DNA of 64,000 nucleotides, from NCBI RefSeq assembly GCF_017874375.1, contig NZ_JAGGLK010000003.1, positions 1 to 64,000 of the forward strand. The letters run 5' to 3'. The notes beneath the pieces are model-generated. The model was not told the origin of the DNA. It did no database searches and saw only the letters and a program-made list of their open reading frames with translations. A program made the position numbers and the translations under genes. The stretch comes from Methanohalophilus levihalophilus. Lineage in GTDB: Archaea; Halobacteriota; Methanosarcinia; Methanosarcinales; Methanosarcinaceae. How positions within the stretch are numbered: the first letter of the stretch is position 1; each line of letters begins with the position of its first letter. Below, one piece after another: positions 58,511-61,618 of the stretch.

Positions 58511-59773
58511 TCATTTCTCAATGTCCAGAATTTTAAATCCCCCTGCTTTTGGTGGAAAGTATATTAATCCAGCATGACTTAATTGTGCCACGATTGCTTC
58601 AAATTTCCATTCTGGAACCGCTGTAGAAACCAATAATTGATTCATAGGGATTAGGTTTTCCTTGCCAAATGCCTTTTTTAAATCAGTATAAAATATCCTT
58701 TCATCGTCTGATAGTCGATAAAGGAGCTCAGTTTTTAAATTCATTTTTTGTATGAAAAGGGAATGATTATACATTTCACCCCATGTATCAAATGCTGTAT
58801 CAACATCTTCTTTTTCTACCTTTTCTCTAAAATTAAGCCTTGCAACTGCAGATGCTAATTTTGGAACTGCGCTACCCAATTCTTGATTATAACTTGCATA
58901 TTCGCTTTGTCGAAAATCCTCATACATTTCCTGTACCTTGAATTCAATGTGGGATTCTAGCTTTTTAGGAATTTGTGGTTGATACAAAAGGGAATCGAGC
59001 ATATATCCTCTGGCAAGAGGCGCCTGATCAAAAAATTTATCTCGATAGAAGTCAGCAGACTTTAATTCAGTGTCTAGGGTAAATGGTATGTGGACAGATA
59101 TATTGTCTGGATTTTTGTATGTAACATTCACTTCTGAACTAAACAAAGGATTCAATTGTCGTTTTGATTTGGTATAGCTGTAGAAGTTATTTGATTTTGT
59201 TTGGTTGAATTCACGTGGGATAAGTCCCATCATATTTTTGAACATGCTCCATCTTGGTTCATTAGTCAAAGCAGCTGCATCGATACCGCCTTTCATATTA
59301 CTACCCAGAATTGGTGTTGAAGCTGTGTACATTGCAACGCTGTAGCTGATGTTCTCTAGATAATCAGTTGTTGCTACAAACGGTGTTTTAAAAAAGTCTA
59401 AATATTCCTCCAAATCCATCATTTTTCGATGTGTAATTTTGCTAGGGTCGACATATTCCCATCTACTAACATATTTCGTATCATTCCACAAAAAACCATT
59501 TTTTAGAGATGTCACATTTCTTTCAGATTCTTTAACGTAAACCCTTATAAGGCGGTTTTTTTCCGGGGCTTTCCCATTTTCAATCTCATAATAGATTTCC
59601 CTCCCATCTTTCCAAAAGGGAGATGGATCAAGACGAAATTTTCTCTGGCTACGGCCAGTGTATCTGACAAACCCCATGTTCTCATGTTCAAAAAACAGGC
59701 TATATTCATAACCAGACATTTCATAACCATACATTCGTTCGCTAAGAGTTTTATCATATCTAAAAGAGGGCAT
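58511..59773 (-). CDS. Uncharacterised accessory protein with MCM-lid-like C-terminal region
   Basis: I do not recognise this 420-aa protein as a whole. It is mostly soluble, aromatic-rich and without a P-loop. Residues ~305-345 (PKLASAVARLNFREKVEKED and after) resemble the helical lid of MCM AAA+ proteins. The last ~75 residues look like a winged helix (FYTDLKKAF, VPEWKFEAIVAQLSHAGLIY). It is clearly AT-richer than its neighbours and has no partner genes, so it may have been acquired. It could derive from a replication-type protein of a mobile element. The start is ATG 59773. Confidence 0.6.
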   Translation of the reverse strand: MPSFRYDKTLSERMYGYEMSGYEYSLFFEHENMGFVRYTGRSQRKFRLDPSPFWKDGREIYYEIENGKAPEKNRLIRVYVKESERNVTSLKNGFLWNDTKYVSRWEYVDPSKITHRKMMDLEEYLDFFKTPFVATTDYLENISYSVAMYTASTPILGSNMKGGIDAAALTNEPRWSMFKNMMGLIPREFNQTKSNNFYSYTKSKRQLNPLFSSEVNVTYKNPDNISVHIPFTLDTELKSADFYRDKFFDQAPLARGYMLDSLLYQPQIPKKLESHIEFKVQEMYEDFRQSEYASYNQELGSAVPKLASAVARLNFREKVEKEDVDTAFDTWGEMYNHSLFIQKMNLKTELLYRLSDDERIFYTDLKKAFGKENLIPMNQLLVSTAVPEWKFEAIVAQLSHAGLIYFPPKAGGFKILDIEK

Positions 59774-59922: not shown

Positions 59923-60195
59923 ATGAAATTAAAATCGGCAGCTTTTTATTATTTAGCTTTTCATTTTATTGTAATGACCCGGATGACCAATTCACACCAA
60001 AAAAATGCAATCTCTGCTATGAAAGACATTTTTGAAATGGATAAGTCACGGGATCCTGAAGCAACTGAAGTAAACTCATTACTTGAATCCCTTGGAACTC
60101 ATGGTTCTTTGGTAGGCAAAACTGCGGTGTACAACGGATCTGAATTATCCCATGTGCATACAAAAAAGGCAGTTACTAAAGACAAACGCTTATGA
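59923..60195 (+). CDS. Possible small protein, 90 aa
   Basis: An open frame starts at ATG 59923 after AT-rich DNA, with no clear Shine-Dalgarno. It begins MKLKSAAFYYLAFHF with one hydrophobic stretch, followed by a polar segment. No family is recognised. It ends 6 nt inside the convergent nuclease gene. It may be real or spurious. The stretch 59774-59922 shows only AT-rich sequence. Confidence 0.3.
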   Translation: MKLKSAAFYYLAFHFIVMTRMTNSHQKNAISAMKDIFEMDKSRDPEATEVNSLLESLGTHGSLVGKTAVYNGSELSHVHTKKAVTKDKRL

Positions 60196-60984
60196 AATTC
60201 CCGGGACGAAGTTCAAAAGCTCAATTATTTTTCGTGAAGTTTTGCCTTCAACTTCTTCCTCAAGACCATAGTCTCTTATCACGTGATTATCCAGAGATAT
60301 GTCGTCAAGATAACCGTACCAATAAACTACAAGGCCGGTCCCATAGAGTTTCTCATACTCGATGAACTGCTTTCGAATATAATGCTCATGTTCGGAGTGG
60401 TTTCCAAAAACCGCCTTGCTTTCAATCCAGAGAACCTTTTTTCCATCAACTTCCATCGGCTCTTCAAGCAAAAAATCAGGCGTTTTAGATGAATTAGTGT
60501 CCCTTAAATCGTCTTCAGTCTAATACACAATGTCTTTTCCGTCAAGCCATTCAGCAATAATTTCCTCGCCCATCTCTCCCCTGTGGGCCTGCATGTGGTG
60601 AGCCCAGGGTGAGAAAAAGGGATCCAATTCGATTGCTTCGTAAATTTCAGATGCAAGTCTCCTGTCAGGGAGTTCATCAAGATGCTTAAGTGTGCGCTTC
60701 TTTGGGTATCCCATCTGCTGCAGGAGATTGGATGTCACAAGAGTAGGTGGGAGCTGGTAGATGTCAGAGATTTCCATTATAGTCTTGCCGTTTTTCCAGA
60801 GACGCAGGTTTCTTTCAGTATGCTTCTCCATGTTGTGAAAGTTCTTCTTCACATGATCGACTATTTTCTGATTAAGAATTGTCCCTATAACGCCTCTTGG
60901 CTGGCCAAATTTAAGTGAGAGATTTTCAATATCATCAATAGCATTAACGGACTCACTTATCTGGTCATATGTTTTTTTATCCAT
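60190..60984 (-). CDS. CDIN1/C15orf41-like TPD nuclease, read through an in-frame TAG
   Basis: If codon 155 (TAG, 60520-60522) is read, this is one 264-codon gene ending at TAA. The N-terminal half (1-~150) is helical with a winged-helix part (GKTIMEISDIYQLPPTLVTS). After the TAG comes TEDDLRDTNSSKTPDFLLEE, then the PD-(D/E)XK core: P169-D170 of the TPD motif, E188-S-K190 in LWIESKAVFG, and GTGLVVYWYGYLDD. This matches human CDIN1, whose TPDF and HWIESKASFG segments align, in one continuous frame. Without readthrough the catalytic half is lost. ATG 60984 overlaps the stop of the glycosylase gene by 8 nt. Pyrrolysine insertion is the likely decoding in this lineage; a pseudogene is the alternative. 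Confidence 0.8.
60520..60522 (-). other. In-frame amber codon (putative pyrrolysine) in the CDIN1-like gene
   Basis: TAG stands between KDIVY and TEDDL at codon 155, between the winged-helix half and the nuclease core. The frame is unchanged over the 330 nt that follow, and those residues are conserved in the family. The next in-frame stop is the normal TAA at 60190. Confidence 0.75.
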
Positions 60985-61618
60985 TGAATTCCCCGGCAAT
61001 TGGACACAAATTACATTTTTTCTTAACGCAATATTTCTTTGCGTATTCCACTATGAGTGCGTGGTATTCCATATACATATCGACATCATCAGGAAGATTG
61101 TTCTCAAACAAATCCTGTAATTGATAATAATTTCCTTCGATGCCAACGCATTTCATTATTCTTTTGGTATAAGCATCTATAACAAACTTTTGTTTTTTTG
61201 CAGCATAGAGCACAATGCTGTCTGCGGTTTCGGGACCTACTCCATCAAGTGCCAGCAAAGTACTGCGCAGATCACCAAGAGGAAGGGAGAACAGTTCTTC
61301 CATTCTGTTATCAGAAAAAAAGATGGCCAGATTTTTTAATCTTTTTGCTTTCTGCCGGTAAAAACCTGTACAATAAACCAGTTTTTCCAGCAATTCAATT
61401 TCTGATGATGCGATACTTTCAGCATCCATCAGATTTCTTTCCTTAAGATTCCTGATGGCTTCTTCTACATTTTCCCATCTGGTTTGCTGGGTAAGGAGTG
61501 CACCAACGATTATTTCAAAAGGGGTGTCAGCAGGCCACCAGTTCTGTTTTCCGAATTCATTCAGGAGCTAGTTATAGATTCCTGGAACAAGAATCTTTTC
61601 AGGTTTTTTCTCCTTCAT
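60977..61618 (-). CDS. HhH-GPD DNA glycosylase (COG2231, endonuclease III-related), read through an in-frame TAG
   Basis: If codon 17 (TAG, 61568-61570) is read, the gene runs from ATG 61618 for 213 codons. The sequence after TAG is LLNEFGKQNWWPADTPFEII, then GALLTQQT, GFYRQKAKRL, the helix-hairpin-helix LDGVGPETADSI (124-135) and the catalytic Asp D148 in FVIDAYTKR. A MagIII-like 3-methyladenine glycosylase family (COG2231) fits best. Glu stands in the HhH where Nth has its Lys. The C-terminal cysteines (CVKKKCNLC) lack the fourth Cys of a 4Fe-4S loop. No ATG, GTG or TTG lies between TAG and ATG 61429, which would delete the conserved WWP-LTQQT part. GAGGAG precedes ATG 61618, inside the upstream gene. 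Confidence 0.8.
61568..61570 (-). other. In-frame amber codon (putative pyrrolysine) in the glycosylase gene
   Basis: TAG at codon 17 sits in KILVPGIYN-TAG-LLNEFGKQNWWP. Residues on both sides belong to the first helix of the HhH-GPD domain (family pattern IYxxLLxxFGxQxWWP), so the amber replaces a normal residue inside the fold. Confidence 0.75.

Follow-up and report, generated by a model that had tools for sequence, protein, structure and literature searches.

In organisms that carry the pyl genes, the in-frame UAG codons of the methyltransferases MtmB, MtbB and MttB are read as pyrrolysine (Pyl), as is proposed here for a TPD/CDIN1-like gene of Methanohalophilus levihalophilus. However, the Pyl of MtmB, MtbB and MttB is catalytic and conserved, whereas the position at issue here (column 155 of the TPD alignment) is variable and lies outside the conserved motif residues. 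On a larger scale, an archaeal "Pyl code", in which TAG serves as a sense codon genome-wide, was reportedly described by Kivenson et al. in 2025. The present genome shares with such archaea a great scarcity of TAG terminators and many internal TAGs in unrelated genes, but some of its TAGs still coincide with the ends of orthologous genes. Mass spectrometry has detected Pyl in Thg1 (tRNA-His guanylyltransferase) of Methanosarcina acetivorans, whose codon for it is specific to that species and dispensable (PMC2933860; Heinemann et al., 2009). Like the TPD gene, Thg1 is a non-methyltransferase gene with a single species-specific amber codon that its relatives lack and that is taken as neutral; the two differ in that Pyl was observed in the Thg1 protein, where it is not essential for activity, whereas in the TPD product its presence is presumed. 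An amber codon has also been proposed to encode Pyl in the citrate synthase gene of Methanohalophilus mahii (PMC3017947), a housekeeping gene with an internal UAG in the same genus, although gene and species differ from the present case. As for the protein family, the product matches the TPD family (PF14811/CDIN1, C15orf41) across almost the whole model, and the TPD...ESK residues are invariant in its archaeal relatives; unlike CDIN1 (C15orf41), the gene described here is archaeal and interrupted by a TAG. For human C15ORF41, nuclease activity was not detected (PMC7261414).

The gene lies in a 64,000-nucleotide stretch of DNA that was analysed as a whole (the window), and the features that concern it are as follows.

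60190 to 60984, minus strand: TPD/CDIN1-like (PF14811) putative nuclease gene, recognized by translation, by the Pfam TPD match of the joined protein and by 40 stop-free relatives
60520 to 60522, minus strand: in-frame TAG at codon 155, presumably read as Pyl; TAT (Tyr) in the nearest relative
60193 to 60519, minus strand: part after the TAG, with T168-P169-D170, E188 and K190 (pN/pS 0.154; alignment)
60977 to 61618, minus strand: HhH-GPD/endonuclease III-like DNA glycosylase gene, 213 residues, with one in-frame TAG (Pfam HhH-GPD, E 8.3e-17)
61568 to 61570, minus strand: in-frame TAG of the glycosylase gene, codon 17 counting from ATG 61618; AAA (Lys) in the nearest relative

Translation of the minus-strand frame from 60984 to 60190 bore out the initial annotation, which had described a CDIN1-like gene with a single in-frame TAG: the frame has 264 codons, the TAG is codon 155, and 109 further codons follow before a TAA. 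After shuffling with base composition retained, at least 109 open codons follow 0.25% of TAGs. On the joined protein, Pfam TPD matches residues 107-238 with an E value of 1.2e-47 (161.6 bits against a cut-off of 27) and covers nearly the full model; taken separately, the two halves give E values of 3.6e-7 and 1.4e-33. Codon 155 lies inside this domain, which spans it, and the proposal that Pyl would sit between a winged-helix half and a nuclease core has to be dropped, as the TPD/nuclease domain starts near residue 107. The same annotation had placed the TPD...ESK residues beyond the TAG, and rightly, since T168, P169, D170, E188 and K190 are all downstream of it and invariant in a 30-sequence alignment. 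The product is putatively a PD-(D/E)XK-type TPD/CDIN1-like protein with a predicted nuclease activity. No solved relative emerged from a profile search against PDB sequences, and Foldseek with the predicted structure gave no match at E<=0.001, the weak hits including several endonucleases and Hjc. Modelled with moderate confidence (pLDDT 65), the structure would place residue 155 in a short strand ahead of a conserved TE..LR segment. A reading as two genes, each with a start of its own, was discarded, because the homologues are single frames and the first in-frame ATG, GTG or TTG past the TAG is codon 172, beyond P169-D170.

The TPD/CDIN1-like gene is present in 41 of the 60 genomes searched, the source genome included, and none of the 40 relatives carries an internal stop; the TAG is found in the source genome only. 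The homologues cross this point with a sense codon, as had been anticipated, none is split at the place of the TAG, and the downstream half is undecayed. Column 155 of the 30-sequence alignment holds L (13 sequences), R (8), Y (3), S (3), F (1) and C (1), plus the TAG. The nearest relative, a Methanohalophilus sp. bin (G002), is 77% identical and has TAT at codon 155, one base from TAG. Identity to this relative is 76% before the TAG and 78% after it, and pN/pS, with synonymous sites near saturation, is 0.161 and 0.154, respectively; at the sequence level, both halves are under equal purifying constraint. At columns of the alignment that are conserved in the others, neither half shows a departure unique to the source genome. 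Dating of the TAG through lineage-specific changes gave 0 versus 1 unique departures after the TAG, a comparison of low power, and the species is represented in these comparisons by one genome. The copy in another genome (G005) is split by one extra A in an A-run near residue 52, a frameshift that is unrelated to the TAG and is perhaps a sequencing error.

The organism had been supposed to decode UAG as Pyl, and the genome agrees with this, being that of a member of the Methanosarcinaceae with a complete pylTSBCD set. On contig C2, from 319372 to about 323692 on the minus strand, tRNA-Pyl, PylS, PylB, PylC and PylD are encoded in this order; pylT was found by ARAGORN with anticodon CTA, and PylS (408 residues), PylB, PylC and PylD all exceed curated cut-offs. 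The MttB gene of the source genome has one TAG. Within the same genus, MttB of M. portucalensis has been shown by mass spectrometry to contain Pyl (PMC4928046), and deletion of pylT in M. acetivorans blocked growth on methylamines (cited in PMC4928046). Because pylTSBCD is complete, mttB has a TAG and the genome is a Methanohalophilus, Pyl read-through is the best reading of codon 155. A PYLIS-type hairpin was not found after the UAG of the TPD gene, where 103 nt fold no better than shuffles (z = +0.66); this agrees with a model in which Pyl-tRNA and release factor compete without required cis elements (PMC8211752, PMC9499178).

It is thus very probable that the locus is one intact gene in which a sense codon has mutated to UAG and is read as Pyl, a neutral capture at a tolerant site, as reported for Thg1 (PMC2933860). 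In this model, the TAG would have arisen by mutation from TAY or a similar sense codon, and charged tRNA-Pyl would compete with release factor at the UAG. Insertion of Pyl at the tolerant residue 155 would yield the 264-residue protein, and the remaining translation would stop to give a 154-residue fragment without the catalytic residues. The same read-through may take place in the upstream glycosylase gene and in many others, UAG drifting into coding sequence because so few genes of this genome use it as a terminator. Both Pyl as the inserted residue and the efficiency of read-through are what we infer from sequence.

The start of the TPD gene overlaps the stop of the upstream glycosylase gene by 8 bases (ATGGATAA), and the two genes are adjacent in 18 of the 21 genomes compared; this conserved pairing of glycosylase and nuclease suggests a shared role in DNA repair. 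Strong matches to the glycosylase gene occur in 30 relatives, none of which has a stop, and its TAG, too, is found only in the source genome. NCBIfam glycosylase models score below their cut-offs on this gene, and two weaker HhH-GPD matches lie elsewhere in the source genome. Two neighbouring TAG genes are unsurprising, since the density of such genes (14-22 among 1230) predicts, by a rough estimate, 0.16-0.4 adjacent pairs by chance. Gene callers truncate genes with internal TAGs, here two consecutive ones, and the TAG of the glycosylase gene would make them place its start wrongly, at an internal codon. Also in the window, a 420-residue protein (58511-59773, minus strand) belongs to no NCBIfam family, and its one Pfam match, to MCM-lid, stays below threshold.

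TAG use was sampled in 1.264 Mb of the source genome (about 60% of it), 1.2 Mb of G003 and 0.354 Mb of G002, and the frames either side of each stop in called genes were compared with other genomes under identity filters on both sides. Among candidates with homologues, homology spanned the stop for 11 of 36 TAGs against 4 of 450 TAA/TGA stops in the source genome (Fisher p 8e-11), for 7 of 31 against 5 of 444 in G003 (p 1.6e-6) and for 4 of 13 against 3 of 129 in G002 (p 0.0013), p values that serve as a guide because the filters were picked after an earlier, noisy all-frames test had been swamped by shadow frames. In the 1.264 Mb of the source genome, at least 11 genes have homology running across an internal TAG; joined-frame Pfam matches include ftr, a D12-class DNA adenine methylase, HD-domain proteins, a SAM methyltransferase, an FAD oxidoreductase and others. 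Orthologue-checked gene ends comprise 353 TAA, 302 TGA and 7 TAG (about 1%), the mttB Pyl codon being among the 7; with mttB excluded, TAG stands at 6 of 661 ends, all 6 with a TAA or TGA within 25 codons. In the window, none of the 66 called frames besides the TPD gene ends in TAG. The few TAGs that seem to terminate genes in the source genome suggest that UAG is not exclusively a sense codon. The genome clearly illustrates how UAG, having become rare as a stop, drifts into ordinary genes.

Among the genes with internal TAGs, the strongest case is that of a core enzyme of methanogenesis, Ftr, which works in the oxidative branch during methylotrophic growth.

C2:92058-92948, plus strand: ftr (formylmethanofuran:tetrahydromethanopterin formyltransferase), Pfam PF01913 and PF02741 on the joined frame

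The TAG of ftr lies at C2:92169 (codon 38), where relatives carry CAG, and no start codon occurs between it and codon 49. The gene is single copy in the source genome and 94% identical to ftr of G002. Since Ftr is a core enzyme, termination at this TAG should be lethal or nearly so. More tentatively, it is possible that UAG now functions essentially as a sense codon, on which the sole ftr and the glycosylase-nuclease pair depend, and that Pyl, normally tied to methylamines, is indispensable on every substrate. If the sole ftr truly requires Pyl, the pyl genes should be essential on all substrates.

In an alternate scenario, the nonsense mutation is recent or the two genes are pseudogenes at an early stage, with nuclease and glycosylase both hit and being lost. 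This is unlikely. It would explain why two overlapping genes each hold a premature stop, the comparison covers a single genome of the species, and the two weaker HhH-GPD matches might cover loss of the glycosylase. However, both stops are TAG, and the genome encodes the full pyl set and shows a strong excess of internal stops for this triplet alone. The sole ftr has a TAG of the same kind. In addition, there is no other lesion and no excess of changes at conserved columns, and constraint is equal on both sides, although a nonsense mutation of recent date would leave this comparison unchanged, the synonymous sites being almost saturated between the two genomes. A single-base sequencing or assembly error, for which the availability of one genome of the species leaves some room, is extremely improbable, as the assembly is in 5 contigs and 98.8% complete, errors would not favour TAG over TAA or TGA, and two other Methanohalophilus genomes show the internal-TAG excess as well.

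It had further been suggested that nuclease production may depend on Pyl supply. Such a dependence follows in principle, in that the conserved TPD...ESK residues would not be made without read-through; however, nothing shows regulation. A regulatory use, by which the UAGs would tie the output of a DNA-repair nuclease and glycosylase to Pyl supply, and hence to methylamine availability, is very unlikely. Although both genes of a conserved pair need read-through, the TAG is species-unique at both sites, column 155 is variable, no RNA element follows the UAG, unrelated genes including the sole ftr also carry TAGs, and the roughly estimated density of TAG genes already predicts 0.16-0.4 adjacent pairs by chance. 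The idea of a special codon or regulatory link thus finds no footing in these data, and the TAG of the TPD gene looks more like an accident tolerated under a loosened genetic code than like a special switch.

Several other frames with TAGs were observed in the source genome. The D12-class N6-adenine DNA methylase gene (C2:459798-460730, minus strand) has its TAG at codon 201, where E stands in the nearest relative. In-frame TAGs also occur in genes at C3:248356-249504, C2:138906-139565, C2:263962-265449, C2:341907-343742, C2:260300-261814 and C2:591248-594334, and their types are FAD oxidoreductase, SAM methyltransferase, HD-domain proteins and NosD-type beta-helix proteins. At C3:256010-257038 (minus strand), two adjoining frames that appear integrase-like by eye each meet a TAG that is followed by a long open continuation.
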